Virus record (IMG/VR): IMGVR_UViG_3300006735_000094
Span: 1 to 35,586 of that record
Strand: one strand, 5' to 3'
From: a virus
DNA length: 35,586 nt
Shown here: positions 4,075 through 32,492 of the stretch, in pieces
Layout of the letters: every line of letters begins with the position of its first letter
Position numbering within the stretch: the first letter of the stretch is position 1
The notes under the pieces: model-generated
Seen by the model: only the letters and a program-made list of their open reading frames with translations
Told to the model about the DNA's origin: nothing
The model's database searches: none
Made by a program: the position numbers and the translations under genes

Positions 4075-4252
4075 AAAAATTGAAGATGTTAAGGAGCTGG
4101 TAAGGTTCCTTGGTGACAACCGCGTGGCCCGTTTTAAAGGCATGGGTATCGAGGTGGATCTGCATCCAGATGTATCAGCAATGATGGAGCAGCCGCCACA
4201 ATTAAACGATCAGCAGCTGCAAGATGAATACTTGAACAGGAGGGCGATATGA
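4064..4252 (+). CDS. Small protein between polyvalent protein and portal
   Basis: A 62-residue protein that I do not recognise. It overlaps the end of the polyvalent gene by 11 bases and ends in an ATGA overlap with the portal start at 4249, so it is almost certainly translated as part of the head operon. The N-terminal half is mixed (KKIEDVKELVRFLGDNRVARF) and the C-terminal half is Gln- and Asp-rich. There is no signal peptide or membrane segment. The last codons contain the perfect AGGAGG ribosome-binding site used by the portal gene. It could be a small head or connector accessory protein, but only its position suggests that. Confidence 0.75.
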   Translation: MLTKKIEDVKELVRFLGDNRVARFKGMGIEVDLHPDVSAMMEQPPQLNDQQLQDEYLNRRAI

Positions 4253-6117
4253 GTTTCTGGTGGCAAAAAGATGAAAACGAACTTGGCAGCGCGGTTGCCG
4301 ATATTATTTACAAGCTGAAGGAAGATCATTATGGCCGATTTACCATGAATCTCGACATGCTCCGCATGTATACGCAACGGGATTATGAAGCCCTGGATCG
4401 TTTTAATCCAGAGGCCCGCGCCATGAATCTCAGAGCTGAAGATTTTAGGATGCGGTTGAATGTGATTGGCAACATGGTGGACACGCTCACCTCGCGGATC
4501 GGCAAGTCGAAGCCGCGCCCGATGTACCTTACCAAGCGCGGTGATTATAAGTTGCGCCAAAAGGCCAGGCTGCTAGGCGATATGATGGAAGGTGTATTTC
4601 ATCAGACCAATCTTTTTCGGTTAATGCCAAATGTATTTATGGACAGCTGCATTTTTGACATTGCGGCCTTGAAAGTAGGGCGTGATGGCCAGGATCTTTT
4701 TACGGAGCGCGTTTTTCCTAATGAACTGGTTTGGGATATTGACAGCGCCATGTATTCAGGAATGCCGCCAGCACTGCATCAGATCAAATCGATGCCGATG
4801 GAAACGCTTATTATGATGTATCCTGAAGCAGAGGCCGACATCCGTTTTATGGCAGAACAGATTAGTAATTATGACGGTGAAGAGGGGCGTGAAGCGGACA
4901 TGCTGGAAGTTATTGAATCCTGGCATTTGCCCTCAGTCATGGGCGGCGATGACGGGCTGCACTGCATCACCATGAAGGATCTAGTTTTAAGCTCAGAGCA
5001 ATATGATTATGACCGTTACCCGTTTGTTTTCTTAAAATGGGGTGAGGCTGGAATCGGATTTGCTGGAATATCCCTGGCCGAGCAGCTGAAGAATGTTCAG
5101 TTTGAGATTAATAAACTTTGCTTACGGATCCAGCAAGCCATGCACCTTCTCAGCGTGCCGTGGGTTTTTGTCCAGGCTGGCAGCCGCGTAGTCGATTCGC
5201 ACCTTAGAAATGTACCTGGTTCAATTATTTCCTACGTAGGTCAGCCGCCCGTCACCTACACGCCCCAGGCGATGCACCCTGAAGTCTACGCGCACCTGGA
5301 TCGATTGTTTCAACGGGCTTATGAAATTGCTGGCGTATCCGAACTATCTGCAACAGGGAAAAAGCCCGCGGGCCTGGAAAGCGGCGCCGCATTGCGAGCA
5401 TATCATGACATTGAAACCGAGCGTTTCATTTCCGTAGCGCAGCGTTATGAAAATGCTTTTATGGATGCAGCTCAATGGTTCATGGATCTGGCTCAGGAAA
5501 TCGTAGCAGAAAGCGGATCTTTTCCTGTTAATGGGATTGCTCACCGCACCATGCGGACCATCGATTTCAAAGATATTAAGATGGCAGAAAAAGATTATAT
5601 CCTGCAACCGTACCCCGTCAGTCTGTTGCCATCCACCCCAGCCGGAAGGCTTCAGGCGGTTTCCGAGCTGGTCAATAATCAGATTATTACAGATCCAGGC
5701 CAGATTGTGCGGCTCTTGGATTTTCCAGATTTACAATCCGTTACAAGCCTGGTCGAAACCCAGGAAAATGATGTCGATTGGCGCATTCAGGAAATTGAAG
5801 ATAATGGAATTTACCATGGGCCTGAGCCTGTCATGAATCTTCAATATGCCAGCCAGCGCATGATCCAGGCATACCTGGAAGGTCAACAGGATGGAATGGA
5901 ACTGGATAAATTAAATTTGATGCTGCTTTTTATCGATGAATGTCAGCAGCTGATGCAACAATCTGCAAATGTTGCCCAGGCTCCGGCGGCCCCAGGCGAG
6001 CAGCCCGCCCAGCTGCCGGAGTCACCCCAGGCTGAAGGGGGCCAAACCCCGCCGAGTATGGCGGACATAATGGGCGGCGCACCAGCCACGCCACCCGCTG
6101 AATCCTTACCCGCATAA
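4249..6117 (+). CDS. Portal protein
   Basis: This 622-residue protein is of portal size. It has the usual pattern: an N-terminal helical part with many Met and Arg residues, a central region with FLKWGEAGIGFAGISLAEQLKN and a series of amphipathic helices, then the stretch GVSELSATGKKPAGLESGAA, which I recognise from podovirus-type portals. The last 45 or so residues are low-complexity Pro/Ala/Gln. As the dodecameric ring at one capsid vertex, a portal would be the DNA entry channel and the TerL docking site. A perfect AGGAGG lies 5-6 bases ahead of the ATG. The order polyvalent protein, portal, scaffold, capsid supports the call. There are no transmembrane segments. The call is confident by pattern and context, though no search was run. 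Confidence 0.85.
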   Translation: MSFWWQKDENELGSAVADIIYKLKEDHYGRFTMNLDMLRMYTQRDYEALDRFNPEARAMNLRAEDFRMRLNVIGNMVDTLTSRIGKSKPRPMYLTKRGDYKLRQKARLLGDMMEGVFHQTNLFRLMPNVFMDSCIFDIAALKVGRDGQDLFTERVFPNELVWDIDSAMYSGMPPALHQIKSMPMETLIMMYPEAEADIRFMAEQISNYDGEEGREADMLEVIESWHLPSVMGGDDGLHCITMKDLVLSSEQYDYDRYPFVFLKWGEAGIGFAGISLAEQLKNVQFEINKLCLRIQQAMHLLSVPWVFVQAGSRVVDSHLRNVPGSIISYVGQPPVTYTPQAMHPEVYAHLDRLFQRAYEIAGVSELSATGKKPAGLESGAALRAYHDIETERFISVAQRYENAFMDAAQWFMDLAQEIVAESGSFPVNGIAHRTMRTIDFKDIKMAEKDYILQPYPVSLLPSTPAGRLQAVSELVNNQIITDPGQIVRLLDFPDLQSVTSLVETQENDVDWRIQEIEDNGIYHGPEPVMNLQYASQRMIQAYLEGQQDGMELDKLNLMLLFIDECQQLMQQSANVAQAPAAPGEQPAQLPESPQAEGGQTPPSMADIMGGAPATPPAESLPA

Positions 6118-6119
6118 TT

Positions 6120-7046
6120 ATGGAAGATTTACAAGGACAGGAAACCGTAGAGGCGCCGATCCAGGAAGATATAGACGCGGCGCAGATTAATGAATGGATA
6201 GAGGACCATATACCCTCTGAAGAGGCCGAGGTCGAAGTAGATCAGCAGGAATTTGATGCAGATCCTGAAGTGCCTCTGGAAGTAGTGCCGCCGCCGGAAG
6301 ACGAGCCGGAAGCGGAAGCAGCTGCACCAGAAAAAGAAACATCGACCAGCAAAGCATTTTTAAAACAAGCAAAAAAAGAGCGCGAGCTGCAAGCCCAGCG
6401 TGAAGAGCTGAAAAAAATGCAGGATGAGCTGAAGCCTTTCATGGATGCAAAAAAAGCCGCGGAATCCGGCGATATGCTTGGCGCCATGAATCAAGTCGGC
6501 TGGAACTATGAACAGGCTACCAACCAGGTGCTGAATGATGGGAAGCCTCAGCAGCAAAACCAGGCATTAAATCCTGAACTAGAAAAACGATTATCAGCAT
6601 TTGAGGAATCACAGAAAAAACAGCAAATTGATAACTATCTGGCAAACCTAAAAAACATTGTAGATTCCGATGATAATTATCAACTGATACGATCAAAATG
6701 GGATGATACAGTCCCGATGATTCTTCAGCTGCAAGAAATTGAGGCAAAAGAAAGCGGAAAATTACGCGATCATAATAATTTGCTTGACGATATTGAGAAA
6801 TATTATGAGGATATTGTCATAAGTCTTGCTGGATCAGCAAAACTTTCAGACAAAATCGGGCTGAAGGATGCAGCCCAGAGTACCCCCCAGGAAACGCCAT
6901 CCGATAATTCTCCAAGGAAAAGACCGAGAACGCTCAGAAACAGTGTTTCGCGGCCCTCTCCGCCAGCTACGCGGGAGCCGAAAACACGCCGAGAGCGTAT
7001 CGAAGCAGCTCTTGCCGTGTTCGACTCACAAGGGAGGTCCGCATGA
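6120..7046 (+). CDS. Capsid scaffolding protein (putative)
   Basis: A 308-residue protein lying between portal and major capsid protein, which is the standard place for a scaffold. Residues 15-75 are very acidic (Glu/Asp/Pro). A strongly predicted coiled coil follows at about 80-115, rich in Lys, Gln and Glu. The C-terminal 45 residues are basic (PRKRPRTLRN and later TRRERIEAAL), resembling the basic helix-turn-helix that scaffolds use to bind the inner capsid surface. The gene starts only two bases after the portal stop. No protease domain is visible, so it appears to be a pure scaffold without a fused maturation protease. Assignment rests on position, charge pattern and size, because scaffolds share little sequence. 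Confidence 0.75.
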   Translation: MEDLQGQETVEAPIQEDIDAAQINEWIEDHIPSEEAEVEVDQQEFDADPEVPLEVVPPPEDEPEAEAAAPEKETSTSKAFLKQAKKERELQAQREELKKMQDELKPFMDAKKAAESGDMLGAMNQVGWNYEQATNQVLNDGKPQQQNQALNPELEKRLSAFEESQKKQQIDNYLANLKNIVDSDDNYQLIRSKWDDTVPMILQLQEIEAKESGKLRDHNNLLDDIEKYYEDIVISLAGSAKLSDKIGLKDAAQSTPQETPSDNSPRKRPRTLRNSVSRPSPPATREPKTRRERIEAALAVFDSQGRSA

Positions 7047-23601: not shown

Positions 23602-23973
23602 ATGGCTGAAATGATTACACCAAATTTCAGCAGGGCCGAAATGCGATGTAAATGCGGCACTTGTAAACGTGACGAAATGAATCCTGAATTCATGAAAATG
23701 CTTCAGGAACTTAGAAACATTTGCGGCCCGTTAAAAGTGACTAGCGGATACCGCTGCGAGCAGCACAATAAAGATTCTGGGGGTTATCCGAAATCAGCTC
23801 ATGTTCAGGGCTGCGCGGCTGACATCCAGATATATGGACCGAGGGCATTAAAGCTCATGGAAGAATCCCGCAAGGTCGGATTCCGTGGGATTGGATTTTC
23901 TCAGAAGGGTCCGCACCATCAACGCTTCATCCATCTTGACACGTTAGAGCGTGAAGCTGTTTGGAGCTACTAA
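23602..23973 (+). CDS. Endolysin, peptidase M15 family (Peptidase_M15_3 type)
   Basis: A 123-residue zinc peptidase. The motif SAHVQGCAADI supplies H67 and D74, and FIHLD supplies H111; together these are the three zinc ligands of the M15 (D-Ala-D-Ala carboxypeptidase / VanY-like) fold. Further conserved points are the Cys pair near 16-21, the MNPEFMKMLQELR segment and TSGYRCEQHN. It would cut the peptide cross-bridges of peptidoglycan at the end of infection. I chose the ATG at 23602, with a GGGGGG stretch ahead of it, over an in-frame TTG at 23590. There is no signal peptide, so it needs a holin. Its stop overlaps the next small gene (TAATG). Confidence 0.88.
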   Translation: MAEMITPNFSRAEMRCKCGTCKRDEMNPEFMKMLQELRNICGPLKVTSGYRCEQHNKDSGGYPKSAHVQGCAADIQIYGPRALKLMEESRKVGFRGIGFSQKGPHHQRFIHLDTLEREAVWSY

Positions 23974-24077
23974 TGTTATTACCAGATGAAAGGAACCAAA
24001 TGCCAGGAATACACTACGGAAAGAAGTCAATGATGAATAAGCCGAAGCGCAAAAAGCGCATGAAAAAAGGGAAATAG
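23973..24077 (+). CDS. Basic micro-protein (34 residues)
   Basis: A short gene that starts in a TAATG overlap with the endolysin stop, the kind of coupling seen throughout this operon. It encodes 34 residues, and the last 15 are mostly Lys and Arg (KPKRKKRMKKGK). Such short, very basic tails are common at the ends of structural or lysis operons in environmental phages and may bind DNA or pack inside the capsid. I do not know a named family. It is the last rightward gene before attP. Confidence 0.5.
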   Translation: MLLPDERNQMPGIHYGKKSMMNKPKRKKRMKKGK

Positions 24078-24127
24078 GTTTATACATTGTTTCGACATTT
24101 AGGGATGGTTTAGACATGTTTAAACAT
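24078..24127 (+). repeat. P-arm direct repeats (four copies, GTTTAGACATT-like)
   Basis: Four copies of a related motif occur in the same orientation: GTTTATACATT (24078-24088), GTTTCGACATT (24089-24099), GTTTAGACAT (24108-24117) and GTTTAAACAT (24118-24127). The first pair and the second pair are each head to tail. They lie upstream of the tRNA core and are the likely arm-type integrase binding sites. Confidence 0.7.
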
Positions 24128-24143
24128 CCAAATCATCCCTAAA
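24098..24143. repeat. Inverted repeat in the attP left arm
   Basis: TTTAGGGATG (24098-24107) and CATCCCTAAA (24134-24143) form a perfect 10-base inverted repeat around a 26-base centre that contains two of the arm repeats. It may be a bidirectional terminator between convergent operons or a binding site for a bending or excision factor. The T tract after it is poor (ATTGATTTT), so I do not call it a terminator. Confidence 0.55.
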
Positions 24144-24168
24144 GTATTGATTTTACTAATGGCCGTCA

Positions 24169-24215
24169 GGCTCATAACCCGAAGGTCAGAGGTTCGAATC
24201 CTCTCCCCGCTACCA
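24169..24215 (+). other. attP core: 3' portion of a CAT-anticodon tRNA, probably initiator tRNA
   Basis: The sequence GGCTCATAACCCGAAGG, a perfect T-stem AGAGG/CCTCT around the loop TTCGAAT, and an encoded CCA end reproduce the anticodon loop to 3' end of a tRNA. The GG-CTCATAA-CCCGA anticodon arm resembles bacterial initiator tRNA-fMet. Upstream of about 24165 there is no D-arm or acceptor strand, and the anticodon stem has an A where G would be expected (24168), so this is a fragment and not a working tRNA. Integration here would rebuild the 3' end of the host tRNA gene. Confidence 0.85.
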
Positions 24216-24271
24216 GTTTTTTCAACGGTTTACAAGCATTTGTGCCTTCCATGGCTCAGTAAAAAACGTCC

Positions 24272-24294
24272 GTTTAGACATTCGTTTAGACATT
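24272..24294 (+). repeat. P'-arm direct repeats (two copies, GTTTAGACATT)
   Basis: Two exact copies of GTTTAGACATT at 24272-24282 and 24284-24294 lie 12 bases apart, downstream of the core and in the same orientation as the four copies on the other side. The last base touches the stop codon of the leftward gene ending at 24294. They are likely P' arm integrase sites. Confidence 0.72.
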
Positions 24295-24659
24295 CAGGCG
24301 GGAACTTTAAAACTTTTAAGAATTCTCTTAACATGATGAAGCTTTAATTCTGCTTCAGTTTCCGGTTTGGTGCTGATAATCATTGCAGGTTGAATCCCTT
24401 CCTTAACGATAGTAAAATCTGAAATAGGTTTTACTGATACACCATGTTGGGTCAGATATTTTAATGCTCGGCATATATCCCATTGATCACTATCAAAACG
24501 TGCTTTGATACGCACTGAATCATTGATGATCGTCCGTTCCAATATTGTCATGCCATCTTCTTCTGTTATCCGATCCAGTTCAAATAAAAATTTCTCATCC
24601 TGGTATTTTTCCATGTTACAAATGGCATAGGTGCGTTCCACTATTGTTCCCTGTTTCAT
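24294..24659 (-). CDS. Unknown protein, end of the leftward operon
   Basis: A 121-residue protein of no family I recognise. The ATG at 24659 is preceded by GGAGG six bases away; an in-frame TTG at 24665 is unlikely to be the start. The sequence is mixed alpha/beta with no membrane segment: YAICNMEKYQDEKFLFELD, then ILERTIINDSVRIKARFDSD, then a Lys- and His-containing C-terminus (LHHVKRILKSFKV). It is the last gene of the operon that carries the integrase and repressor, and its stop codon abuts the P' arm repeats. A role in lysogeny, superinfection exclusion or excision is possible from its position, but nothing in the sequence proves it. Confidence 0.65.
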   Translation of the reverse strand: MKQGTIVERTYAICNMEKYQDEKFLFELDRITEEDGMTILERTIINDSVRIKARFDSDQWDICRALKYLTQHGVSVKPISDFTIVKEGIQPAMIISTKPETEAELKLHHVKRILKSFKVPA

Positions 24660-24832: not shown

Positions 24833-25180
24833 TCATTTGACACCCGCAGCATCTTTCAAAAGCTGAATAATCTCTCGTGTTTCTGCCAGCGATTGCTCTG
24901 ACTTTGCTAAATCAGACTCTAATTTTTGAACATCTACATTATCAACGGGACTAGATTCAACCCCGTTAATAAGCCAATTCGCATCAACTTTGTAAACGCT
25001 CCACAATGCCCCCAAAATATCCAGCGGAGGCTGCTGTTTGCCGGATTCAATCCGACTTAAAGAGTGACGATTTACGCCAATTTTTTCGGCAAATTCATCT
25101 TGTTTTAAACCGTGCGAATTACGAACTTGCCGGATCCGTTTACCAATTTCATTTATATCCATGCGTAGATTCATAATCAT
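24833..25180 (-). CDS. XRE-family (Cro/CI-type) transcriptional repressor
   Basis: A helix-turn-helix protein of about 110-115 residues. The DNA-binding domain starts at MDINEIGKRIRQVRNSHGLK and contains DEFAEKIGVNRHSLSRIESGK, a textbook HTH_3 recognition region, then LDILGALWSVYKVDANWLING, the common 'LxxIAxxxxVxxxWLxxG' closing segment. The remaining 45 residues form a coiled coil that probably dimerises. There is no LexA-like peptidase domain, so SOS autocleavage is not expected. Starts at 25180, 25174 and 25162 are possible: 25180 directly follows the upstream stop and is favoured for coupling, while 25162 fits family length best. It is probably the lysogeny repressor, acting on the 27227-27344 region. 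The DNA-binding call is secure; the regulatory target is inferred. Confidence 0.85.
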   Translation of the reverse strand: MIMNLRMDINEIGKRIRQVRNSHGLKQDEFAEKIGVNRHSLSRIESGKQQPPLDILGALWSVYKVDANWLINGVESSPVDNVDVQKLESDLAKSEQSLAETREIIQLLKDAAGVK

Positions 25181-25181
25181 T

Positions 25182-25391
25182 TTATGGATAATTTGCAATT
25201 ATAAAATCACGAGCATCAGAAATTGAGTTGCCAGCTGGCAGCCAGTTTGATGGATCATCAACGTGAGCAAATTCAAAATATTCACCTACCTTTCTAATCC
25301 ATCCCTCAAGCTCGCCGCGGCTTATGACGGTATAGCCCCCTTGACCGTCAGGGACTATCAGCATCATGTTGTTAGGGTCATGCAGCTGCAT
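25182..25391 (-). CDS. Small protein upstream of the repressor
   Basis: A 69-residue protein with an AGGAG site seven bases before the ATG at 25391. The sequence (LIVPDGQGGYTVISRGELEGWIRKVGEYFEFAHVDD) is acidic and mixed alpha/beta. I do not recognise a family. Its stop lies one base before the first possible repressor start, so the two are very likely co-translated. It might modulate the repressor, but that is only suggested by the coupling. Confidence 0.65.
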   Translation of the reverse strand: MQLHDPNNMMLIVPDGQGGYTVISRGELEGWIRKVGEYFEFAHVDDPSNWLPAGNSISDARDFIIANYP

Positions 25392-25421: not shown

Positions 25422-26018
25422 TCATGCTGATTTTTTAGCCCTAATCATTTCTTTTAATTCTTGCCGTTGCCTTTCCAGTTTTTCTTTTCTTAGTTTTTTC
25501 CTCTTCTTGGCCCCGTATTTATCTTTAGCCCCAACCTTTTCCCAGGCGTTTTTTTCATTGTAGTTATCCTTTTCATTATCGTTTCTGTATGCCATCCCTG
25601 GTTTGGTATGGGCAACATAAGCAGAAACCTTCTGTGATGAATCAATCATTGGCTGGGCCATTTGCTGAACAATGGGCTTCAACTTGGTTTCCAATGTTCT
25701 TGTGGTCCATTCCAAGGTTCCTTTACCAAAGTCTCGGAAGCCCAGGTGAATACATTCATGTAGAATAATGTTTGCCATTGCTTCCGCTTTTTGGTTTTTG
25801 GAAAGCTGAATGGTATTGGTTGCCCAATTTGCAGTACCACCAACGCCCTTGCCATTGACTTTATTAACCCAATCAGACATATCAAGAATCTTGATGGTCA
25901 GGGTTTCAATGTCTATCGGATAAGGGCAATTATGATAATGGAGTAAACAAATTGAAGCATGAAGCCAAGCTCTAATAAATCTCCGGTCCACATAAGTTGC
26001 TGTTCCTGAAATTTTCAT
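25422..26018 (-). CDS. HExxH metallopeptidase-like protein in the lysogeny operon
   Basis: A 198-residue protein. Residues around 80-90 read AMANIILHECIHLGFRD, a classical zinc-protease helix with HECIH as HExxH, followed by an acidic helix (LEWTTRTLETKLK) that could carry the third ligand. Before this is a beta part (LTIKILDMSDWVN, then NTIQLSK), as in SprT- or M78-like phage peptidases. The C-terminal 45 residues are extremely Lys/Arg/Glu rich. Lying between integrase and repressor, it might act on the repressor as ImmA acts on ImmR in ICEBs1; this is inference from arrangement, and the sequence does not show close ImmA similarity. Other substrates are equally possible. Confidence 0.7.
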   Translation of the reverse strand: MKISGTATYVDRRFIRAWLHASICLLHYHNCPYPIDIETLTIKILDMSDWVNKVNGKGVGGTANWATNTIQLSKNQKAEAMANIILHECIHLGFRDFGKGTLEWTTRTLETKLKPIVQQMAQPMIDSSQKVSAYVAHTKPGMAYRNDNEKDNYNEKNAWEKVGAKDKYGAKKRKKLRKEKLERQRQELKEMIRAKKSA

Positions 26019-26026
26019 AATGTTCC

Positions 26027-27226
26027 TTAGTTAATCCCCTTAATTTTGTTAGAAATCATGCTGCTGGTTTTTTTGGTTGTGGTCGTATCTAGGTGACCAT
26101 ATCGCAGCGTGGACTGATATGATTTATGTCCAGCGTGTTTTTGTGCTTCCGCCAACGTAGCGCCTGACATTAGGGCATAACTTACTGAAGTATGTCTGAG
26201 GTCATGCCATCTAAAATCTTTAACCCCTGCACGTTTACATGCACGTTTAAATGCCTTCCTGACTTCAGGCTTTGGGAAAACCATGGCACTGGTGGCATTT
26301 TTAAAACGATTACGAAGCAATTCAAAAAGGTCAGGATCTTCGATGCTAAAGTGGTGATCATCATCATTTTTACGTTCTACAAAGGTCAGTTTATTATCCT
26401 CAAAACTGACATGCTCCCAGCGCAATCTTTTACACTCTGAAAACCTAGCAGCTGTTAAAATTGAAAACATAAACATGTCATATAAACATTCGGATCCAAG
26501 TGATGCGCCAAGCTCCGATAAGTCTGAAGATTTTTTGCACTCCAATCGAAGGGCTTCAAACTCTTCCTCATCGAGCTTTCTAACTCGCTCATTTTTAGGT
26601 TCACTCTTAATAACCTTTTCAATTGGGTTTTCATCACAAACACCGACATCATCCCTTTTACCAAAAGCAAAGATACTGCCGAGGGTAGCCATGTAGTTGT
26701 TGGCTGTTTTAACGGCGCGGGTTTTTTCAATTGTATTGGCAACCTCGCGGATCTTGCGGGGCCAGTATGATTTGCCTTTAGCGTCAGTCCAGCTGATCAG
26801 CTCCTTGCCAAGCTGCTCACGCCAGAAATCTATATGGTGCAGCATATTAACCTGGTCCTTGCAGTTTTTCAGGTGGCCGTGATCTGGATCCACATACTTG
26901 TCAATCAGATCATTCAGCGTGGTCTTATCAAGATCGATGGCGGCAGCGGGAGTGCCAAGCTCGGCATCCTTAGATTTCCAAAGCTCTAACATTTCAATGT
27001 CATAAGTATCAATAGAAAGCTCTGACACTTTACACAATGTAATCGGGCGCTTTCTTGCGCCAGGTTTTGCTGGCGGGAATATACCGACAAGGTTGACTTC
27101 ATCCGCGTCTAGTTTTGTAACATCCTCGACCTGGCGGCCACCGCGACCATAGCCAAAAGGCAGCAGCTTGAACTTGCCGCCGTATTGGTTTTGCTTCCAT
27201 TTCCTCAGTAGTGGGTGCTTTTTCAT
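26027..27226 (-). CDS. int: Tyrosine recombinase integrase
   Basis: A 399-residue phage integrase. The catalytic domain has R261 (TAARFSECKRLRW), a probable Lys near 286, H341-x-x-R344 (WHDLRHTSVS), H367 (AGHKSYQST) and the nucleophile Y376 (LRYGHL). The N-terminal 100 residues are basic and probably bind arm sites; residues 100-190 form the core-binding SAM-like domain. It would catalyse site-specific recombination between attP (24078-24294) and a host tRNA gene. GAGG stands five bases before the ATG. It is the first gene of the leftward operon that also encodes the repressor, so integrase and repressor are probably made from one promoter. Confidence 0.95.
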   Translation of the reverse strand: MKKHPLLRKWKQNQYGGKFKLLPFGYGRGGRQVEDVTKLDADEVNLVGIFPPAKPGARKRPITLCKVSELSIDTYDIEMLELWKSKDAELGTPAAAIDLDKTTLNDLIDKYVDPDHGHLKNCKDQVNMLHHIDFWREQLGKELISWTDAKGKSYWPRKIREVANTIEKTRAVKTANNYMATLGSIFAFGKRDDVGVCDENPIEKVIKSEPKNERVRKLDEEEFEALRLECKKSSDLSELGASLGSECLYDMFMFSILTAARFSECKRLRWEHVSFEDNKLTFVERKNDDDHHFSIEDPDLFELLRNRFKNATSAMVFPKPEVRKAFKRACKRAGVKDFRWHDLRHTSVSYALMSGATLAEAQKHAGHKSYQSTLRYGHLDTTTTKKTSSMISNKIKGIN

Positions 27227-30630: not shown

Positions 30631-31050
30631 ATGTCTGAAAAACTTTACACGCTGCCAGAAATTGAGCAGATGACGGGGATCCATGTCGGCACGCTCCGCC
30701 GTGCTGCAAACCATGGGAAGCTGCCAGCGCAGCGCACGGGCAAGGATCAACGCGCCCTTACGCCGTTTCTGGTGCGGCAAAAGGATCTTGATGCCTACTT
30801 AGAAAAGCGCCGCGCCAAAGAATTTAAATTTAATATTTTTAATGGCGGTAAAAAAGGAAGGAAGAAAAAGAAATCTGAACCAAGCAGAGCGCAGATCAAT
30901 GACGCCGTGAAGCGTTATCTGAAGCAGGGTAATAAGATCGAGCGCCGCCAGCCAGAGGTCGAGCCGACCACGTTTAATCCGGCATTCTTGGATGACAGTG
31001 AACCTACCATTCTGGATGAGATCCATGGTGATCTGGCAGATCAATCCTGA
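30631..31050 (+). CDS. Helix-turn-helix (excisionase/MerR-type) DNA-binding protein
   Basis: A 139-residue protein whose first 60 residues are a winged helix-turn-helix of the HTH_17 (excisionase/MerR) kind: LYTLPEIEQMTGIHVGTLRR, then AANHGKLPAQ, then a wing and FLVRQKDLDAYL. A very basic linker follows (GGKKGRKKKK) and then an acidic C-terminal tail. It could be a transcription regulator of the early or late genes, or an excisionase, although it lies far from attP and inside the replication block. The DNA-binding domain is confident; the target is not known. Confidence 0.75.
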   Translation: MSEKLYTLPEIEQMTGIHVGTLRRAANHGKLPAQRTGKDQRALTPFLVRQKDLDAYLEKRRAKEFKFNIFNGGKKGRKKKKSEPSRAQINDAVKRYLKQGNKIERRQPEVEPTTFNPAFLDDSEPTILDEIHGDLADQS

Positions 31051-31402: not shown

Positions 31403-32314
31403 ATGGATGGCTTCATTCTATATCACAGATCCTCGATCAAGCACCCGCTGAGATCAAAACCAGCTGTATGGTCATATTGGATTCATTGCCTGGAATCCGC
31501 CGCATGGGTTGATCATAAAGTATGGTGGAATAACCAGGAATATTTACTGGAACGCGGCAGCTTCATCAGCAGCTCCGCCAGGGACCAGATTCAGCTGGGC
31601 CTTTCACGGCAAGAATTACGGACTGCACAAAAGCATCTTGAACGGTGCGAAATGATAACCATCGAGCCAACCAACAGCGGAACGCTGATCAGAGTCTGCA
31701 ATTACTCCGTTTACCAGAATCCGAATGGTAAGGCTAACCAACAGGCCAACCCTCAATCAACCAACAATCAACCAACAGCTAACCAACAGCTAACCAACAA
31801 TCAACCACAACATAAAGAAGGGAATAAAATAAAAGAAAGAAAAAAAGGAAAAAAGATAACTACTGCCGAGCCAAAATATTCCGAGGCTTTTGAAGCATTC
31901 TGGAAAGCATATCCAAAGAAGGAAAACAAAGCTGAAGCATGGGAGCTGTATGACGATATTGGACCAGAGCAAGAACAGCAGCTGCTTGAATTTGCTCAAC
32001 GCTACGCAAAGGAATACAAAGGCAACCGAAAACAATACGCACAGAAAGCTAAATATATTCTCAGGAACATGGAATGGCTGAACTGGATGAACGACAACCA
32101 GCCTGAACCAACAGCATCACCAGAGCAACCACGCCAGGAAGATCAATCATCTAAGCAACGCGGCTGCTCATCATTCCAATTCTATCGCACCATCATTCGG
32201 CAATCCCTGCCGGATCTTAACCTGGAACAGATTCAACAGCACTGGAATCAATTCCATCACTTTAAAACAGTAATCGAAAATGCAGCAAATCATCAACGTG
32301 CAGCAACTCGCTGA
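31403..32314 (+). CDS. Replication initiator / replisome organiser (lambda O-like layout)
   Basis: A 303-residue protein. Residues 1-115 contain a winged helix-turn-helix typical of phage replisome organisers: GSFISSSARDQIQLGLSRQE, then LRTAQKHLERCEMI, then NSGTLIRVCNYSVYQ. Residues 115-150 are an Asn/Gln/Thr-rich linker whose DNA holds an 11-base-period iteron array. The C-terminal domain (YSEAFEAFWKAYPKKENKAE and on) is the usual helicase-loader or primosome contact domain. It probably binds iterons inside its own gene to open the origin and recruit the host DnaB. No phage helicase or polymerase is visible in the window, so host replication machinery is expected to do the rest. Confidence 0.8.
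   Translation: MDGFILYHRSSIKHPLRSKPAVWSYWIHCLESAAWVDHKVWWNNQEYLLERGSFISSSARDQIQLGLSRQELRTAQKHLERCEMITIEPTNSGTLIRVCNYSVYQNPNGKANQQANPQSTNNQPTANQQLTNNQPQHKEGNKIKERKKGKKITTAEPKYSEAFEAFWKAYPKKENKAEAWELYDDIGPEQEQQLLEFAQRYAKEYKGNRKQYAQKAKYILRNMEWLNWMNDNQPEPTASPEQPRQEDQSSKQRGCSSFQFYRTIIRQSLPDLNLEQIQQHWNQFHHFKTVIENAANHQRAATR
31736..31810 (+). repeat. Iteron array inside the initiator gene (candidate replication origin)
   Basis: Exact copies of AACCAACA start at 31736, 31759, 31770, 31781 and 31792, and degenerate copies at 31748 (AACCCTCA) and 31803 (AACCACAA). From 31748 on, spacing is exactly 11 bases, about one helical turn and not a multiple of three, so the repeat is kept as DNA and not as protein. 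Next to it is an A-rich stretch (31811-31860). This is the lambda-type origin design. Confidence 0.7.
31811..31860 (+). other. A-rich stretch, candidate origin unwinding element
   Basis: Directly after the iterons, about 50 bases are nearly all A with some G (including GAATAAAATAAAAG and GAAAAAAAGG). In lambda-type origins an A/T-rich strand-asymmetric element beside the iterons melts first. The stretch also codes for a Lys/Glu run of the initiator. Confidence 0.5.
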
Positions 32315-32492
32315 CAAGAAATTCCTAGACTCCGAAGAGGCTTCGCAATACATGCTCGGCATGTTCAACATCAAACTCTCATCCTGCACCATCAGACGCC
32401 TTTGCCGACTGAATAAGATTAAGTCCATCAAGCCAGGAAAGGCTCGCGCCATCAAACCCGAATGGTTGAATGAATACCTCGAAAGTGCATGA
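32280..32492 (+). CDS. Small helix-turn-helix protein (excisionase-like)
   Basis: A 70-residue protein overlapping the end of the initiator gene by 35 bases. It has an excisionase/HTH_17-like form: KKFLDSEEASQYMLGMFNIK, then SSCTIRRLCRLNKIKSIKPG, and a final AIKPEWLNEYLESA, where the last part is the wing and closing helix. It is the last gene before the late control region at 32493-32615, so it could regulate terminase and head genes or be the excisionase. The domain call is good; the role is open. Confidence 0.7.
   Translation: MQQIINVQQLADKKFLDSEEASQYMLGMFNIKLSSCTIRRLCRLNKIKSIKPGKARAIKPEWLNEYLESA

Follow-up and report, generated by a model that had tools for sequence, protein, structure and literature searches.

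The 35,586-nt stretch of DNA analysed here (hereafter the window) is an IMG/VR virus record (IMGVR_UViG_3300006735_000094) that encodes a terminase, a portal-like protein, an endolysin, RecT, an XRE repressor and a tyrosine integrase; its ends have no repeat in common and no long reading frame joins them. The rightward late genes finish with the endolysin gene, which ends at 23973, and a leftward gene cluster extends from the integrase gene (int) at 27226 to a reading frame that ends at 24294. Between these converging gene sets lies the segment described below (24078–24294). An earlier note on this DNA, made from the sequence without database searches, had placed the segment beside an integrase operon: it does adjoin the 3′ end of the leftward cluster of int, but int itself is 1.7 kb away. 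The integrase (399 amino acids; 26027–27226, minus strand) matches PF00589 (E = 4 × 10−16) and phrog_1 (integrase), and an XRE-type repressor (24833–25198, minus strand; HTH_3, E = 7 × 10−13) is encoded between int and the segment. Two plus-strand genes, for an HTH_17 protein (30631–31050; PF12728, E = 1 × 10−8) and a small HTH_17-like protein (32280–32492; PF12728, E = 8 × 10−4, below the cut-off), may each encode the excisionase, for which they are weak candidates. A SprT-like reading frame (25422–26018; below the Pfam cut-off) between int and the repressor gene appears to be an inserted extra gene; it is not there in the two sister phage types introduced below. The portal-like protein (4249–6117) gave only weak PHROG and Pfam matches and no tblastn match in 50,697 phage records, and the phage group is thus distant from characterised isolates; from the IMG dataset numbers, we take it to be probably marine.

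The segment contains six 11-mers on the plus strand, which flank a tRNA-derived core (24169–24215). Four lie on the left, namely P1 (GTTTATACATT, 24078–24088), P2 (GTTTCGACATT, 24089–24099), P3 (GTTTAGACATG, 24108–24118) and P4 (GTTTAAACATC, 24118–24128), at offsets of −91, −80, −61 and −51 from the start of the core, and two on the right, P′1 and P′2 (both GTTTAGACATT, 24272–24282 and 24284–24294). All six, reported earlier in this 4 + 2, same-orientation arrangement, were re-found at exactly these positions; of the 11-base arm motif then proposed, the repeats are real, but the true unit is about 10 bp. By chance, the two strands of the window together should yield about 0.6 matches to GTTTAGACATT with at most one mismatch. 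Five such matches fall within 217 bp, where the sixth arm copy has two mismatches, and a single further one lies at 7045 on the minus strand. Dinucleotide shuffles of the region never gave six copies (0 of 300; the largest same-strand family had four), and same-strand families of at least five copies were found in 5 of about 296 draws from other phage stretches. The repeat family is unusual by itself; it is conservation that decides the case.

Seven relatives of the integrase (74–100% identical) were found in IMG/VR. Five of their contigs span the segment and, together with the window, provide three distinct sequences of it, the only three in the data: type W (the window and one contig identical to it around the segment), type B (IMGVR_UViG_3300030329_002903) and type C (three identical contigs). 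The integrases of the three types are 74–78% identical (77% and 74% for the two sister types), and the left arms outside the repeats 58–73%. The repeats, whose absence from relatives with the same integrase the earlier note had named as telling against its reading, are present as 4 + 2 in all three types: the left ones lie at the same four offsets, and the first right one at +103, +105 or +104, with the second always 12 bp further. A search for the layout of the four left repeats, made without reference to core or integrase, returned 5 of 2.9 million viral contigs, and all five encode this integrase family; they are exactly its contigs that span the segment. The arm sites, left and right of the core, are conserved together with the integrase.

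The motif itself differs between the types, being GTTTAGACAT in W, CTTGATACAT in B and GTTGATACAT in C. A comparison of W with B shows that all six copies differ at positions 1 and 4 and five copies at position 6, with one change altogether at the other seven motif positions. None of 200,000 random placements of 18 changes was equally concentrated. The six repeat copies have changed together between sister phages.

The core (24169–24215, plus strand) corresponds to the 3′-terminal 47 nt of an initiator tRNA-Met gene and extends from the anticodon stem through the CCA end; the window has no complete tRNA gene. A search of genomes found these 47 bases, identical, at the tRNA-Met 3′ end in at least 50 genome stretches, nearly all from Desulfobacterota. 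Among the matches listed, 47 copies have an intact 5′ half, and in all of these the anticodon stem reads TCGGG/CCCGA and positions 1 and 72 are mismatched (T:T or C:T). As both features are marks of initiator tRNAs, the predicted target is an initiator tRNA gene; the earlier suggestions of a phage-borne tRNA 3′ fragment running through CCA and of a probable initiator target are thereby supported. The exact matches point to a host in the Desulfobacterota or in a lineage sharing that initiator tRNA. The T stem of sister C differs on both strands (GAAGG/CCTTC versus AGAGG/CCTCT), a paired change of the kind that a real tRNA would show and that would be expected if each phage tracks the tRNA of its own host. 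Since the core of sister C occurs in none of 297 Desulfobacterota genomes, its host would lie elsewhere or be rare.

To the left of the core, identity to the tRNA gene is lost at once. A24168, directly adjacent, is not tRNA-derived (hosts have G), and the bases before the core are GTCG in hosts versus (G/T)TCA in all three phage types. The predicted left core-type half-site, designated C (GGCCGTCAGG, 24161–24170), is kept as GGCC(G/T)TCAGG in the three phage types, where hosts have GTCGGG; positions 24161–24168 are not tRNA-derived, and the half-site is phage-specific. It shows partial symmetry to the right-hand CCCGAAGG. Because tRNA identity begins within the anticodon stem (the GG before CTCATAA) and the half-sites are partly symmetric, strand exchange would take place at the anticodon loop, with CTCATAA (24171–24177) as the predicted 7-bp overlap, or crossover, region. 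An anticodon-loop ‘A’ class of tRNA integration sites has been described (PMC4383910); as in that class, a 3′ tRNA fragment is carried by the phage, and we infer the crossover point itself.

Putative sites for a DNA-bending protein occupy the interval between core and arms on both sides. The predicted integration host factor (IHF) site of the P arm (AATCAATACTTTA, 24140–24152, minus strand) has an exact WATCAANNNNTTR, which recurs at offset −29 on the same strand in W, B and C, with a changed spacer in C; there are three exact WATCAANNNNTTR matches in the 35.6-kb window. That of the P′ arm (TTTCAACGGTTTA, 24220–24232, plus strand) is perfect in C and has one mismatch in W and B. IHF may bind between core and arms on either side. 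An inverted repeat, TTTAGGGATG...CATCCCTAAA (24098–24143), encloses P3 and P4 in a predicted hairpin (fold z-scores of −5.3 and −6.1), the stem of which is maintained in sister B by compensatory changes (AGGCCCG/CGGGCCT) and has one mismatch in sister C. It lacks a T run, and because a scan of 23900–24500 found no intrinsic terminator, we rejected it as a standard terminator. The earlier note had described neither the IHF-like sites nor the hairpin conserved around the inner left repeats, nor that the motif changes in concert between sisters. Separately, positions 24000–24077 encode a very basic peptide of 25 residues (MPGIHYGKKSMMNKPKRKKRMKKGK), the stop codon of which abuts P1; its C-terminal part is kept in sister B and absent in C.

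Residues R261, K286, H341, R344, H367 and Y376 of the integrase are invariant in the seven relatives, leaving the catalytic RKHRH-Y set intact, and residues 1–95 are among the most variable parts of the protein. These residues are predicted to form the N-terminal domain that binds the arm repeats. A model of this domain (pLDDT 75) has a β-β-β-α fold; the full-length model was too poor for use (pLDDT 39). The three best structural matches of the domain model, weak in absolute terms (Z = 4.2–4.6; 9–10% identity only), are the arm-binding domains of the P4-like HPI and HAI7 integrases (PDB 3jtz, 3rmp and 3ju0). No Foldseek match at E < 0.1 and no Pfam arm-binding family was found for it. The likeness to arm-binding domains is therefore suggestive. 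Among solved structures, the best sequence match is to the catalytic domain of the HP1 integrase (PDB 1aih; E = 9 × 10−6), whose target tRNA and arm motifs differ from those of this phage.

With a tyrosine integrase bearing its catalytic residues encoded nearby, a 47-bp core identical to a chromosomal site and conserved arm sites on both sides, the segment 24078–24294 is almost certainly a complete λ-type attP of a temperate phage, served by the integrase at 26027–27226 and directed at the initiator tRNA-Met gene. That it is the complete attP of a tyrosine recombinase, as first proposed from the letters, is now supported by the repeats, their fixed spacing, the identity of the core and the integrase family. 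In the mechanism that we propose, the N-terminal domain of the integrase would grip the six GTTTAGACAT repeats, and its core-binding and catalytic domains would grip the half-sites around CTCATAA. A bending protein of the host, of the IHF/HU kind, would sit in the core–arm interval on each side and fold the DNA such that a single integrase could contact arm and core at once. The phage would then be inserted by strand exchange with the initiator tRNA-Met gene of the host; its own tRNA 3′ half would rebuild that gene at one end, and the displaced 3′ half would be left at the other.

Three other explanations were weighed. The segment might be the relic of an ancestral integration, an attachment site that has decayed or lost its activity, a reading to which the failure to find a lysogen (see below) and the deviation of P1, P2 and P4 from the consensus lend some colour. 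Yet the three types retain the spacing, the IHF-like sites and the core, their motif changes in concert, and the active-site residues of the intact integrase are invariant; because of these three conserved sites and the intact integrase, a dead site is very unlikely. Even less probable is that the repeats are operators of the XRE repressor or of another regulator, next to an unrelated tRNA relic. The XRE gene is 540 bp away, and operators can take the form of repeats close to lysogeny genes, but the DNA-binding region of the repressor is identical in W and B (KQDEFAEKIGVNRHSLSRIESGK), whereas repeat positions 1 and 4 differ between them in all six copies, so this repressor cannot explain the repeats; moreover, no motif cluster occurs at the divergent int/early-gene region, and on either side the repeats keep a fixed spacing from the tRNA core. 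Another tRNA with a CAT anticodon (elongator Met or Ile2) could be imagined as the target, as the phage segment starts at the anticodon arm and does not carry the 5′ half, but the initiator hallmarks in 47 of 47 intact genomic matches among those listed leave it hardly any probability.

Against the preferred reading, a functional attP, stands that about 1,200 sampled genomes yielded no lysogen, attL or attR of this integrase family; the small number of distinct attP sequences, the mismatch in the right IHF site of two of the three types and the weak structural match of the N-terminal domain also count against it. The search used an integrase profile on genomes of the Margulisbacteria phylum (74), the Desulfobacterota (395), the phylum of the Oligoflexales (188), one Desulfobacterota order (193) and the Gammaproteobacteria (369), and gave just distant catalytic-domain matches in the Desulfobacterota set (best E = 4 × 10−29); the left-arm layout occurred in 0 of the 395 Desulfobacterota genomes. 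As no lysogen of the family was found, we infer integration itself. Use of the same initiator-tRNA sublocation in Desulfobacterota has independent support from Desulforhabdus sp. TSK (NZ_BQXM01000006.1), where about 40.6 kb separates an intact initiator tRNA-Met gene from an orphan 47-bp core on that strand (core-related stretches L011 7737–7783 and L037 363–409). A tyrosine-recombinase reading frame, not a close relative of the phage integrase, lies about 0.9 kb inside the orphan end, and an element of a different kind has probably integrated there, at the same site. In Desulfobacteraceae MAGs, more initiator-tRNA 3′ halves occur as orphans (L013 5805–5851 and L034 7219–7265) and are likely to be remnants of other elements. 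About 110 viral contigs (L083–L193) carry the initiator tRNA 3′ half or the whole gene, with varied T stems, several of them with non-tRNA sequence 5′ of the core (for example, L084, L087, L096, L108 and L145); other phages are thus likely to use the same target.

The architecture resembles that of λ attP, in which IHF-type sites H1, H2 and H′ lie between core and arms (PMC4880445): arm and core sites for what would be a heterobivalent integrase, with predicted IHF-type sites interposed. It differs in its 4 + 2 rather than 2 + 3 arm sites and in having a tRNA gene fragment as its core, and the repeat motif and the N-terminal domain of the integrase are unrelated to those of λ. Cluster K mycobacteriophages (CrimD, Anaya and Adephagia) also have 11-bp arm sites around a core, which in K1 lies in the tmRNA gene, and in Cluster K1 a concerted base change in the arm sites is matched to residues of the N-terminal domain (PMC3203893). 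K1 phages have 2 + 2 sites with the right pair inverted, whereas the 4 + 2 sites here are all direct; the present case further differs in its larger divergence, its IHF-like sites and its initiator tRNA target. Prophages of Sinorhizobium meliloti (phiLM21-like and 16-3-like) are inserted at tRNA-fMet(CAT) genes (PMC11476347), the same type of target in different phages and hosts. Concerted arm-site change (PMC3203893) and tRNA-fMet insertion (PMC11476347) are therefore already known, and what is new is an unusually clear further case.

Two groups of integrase residues vary in parallel with the motif. Residues 62–63 are IT in W and SV in B and C, as positions 4 and 6 of the motif vary, and residues 22, 24 and 28 are L, F and R in W and C and R, V and F in B, as position 1 varies. 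It is possible, if rather doubtful, that a modular, readable code links the N-terminal domain to its six arm sites, with these residues setting the motif positions. On this hypothesis, residues 62–63 (IT/SV, in predicted strand 3) would correspond to positions 4 and 6 (T,G or G,T), and residues 22–28 (LPFGYGR/RPVGYGF, at the end of strand 1) to position 1 (G or C), a pairing that rests on three data points. If the code were true, the repeats would read GTTGATACAT in the relative L064 and CTTTAGACAT in L066, a natural mix; both contigs end before attP.

The analysis yields a fully mapped attP/integrase pair, with a predicted target, for an uncultivated, probably marine group of temperate phages. 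How tyrosine integrases recognise their arm sites is hard to predict, and the sister set leaves few positions as candidates for the specificity residues. The three sisters, in which core, spacing and IHF-like sites were kept and the six repeats switched together, constitute a natural experiment on recognition. They make testable an evolutionary question: how six sites and one domain can change in step without loss of function.
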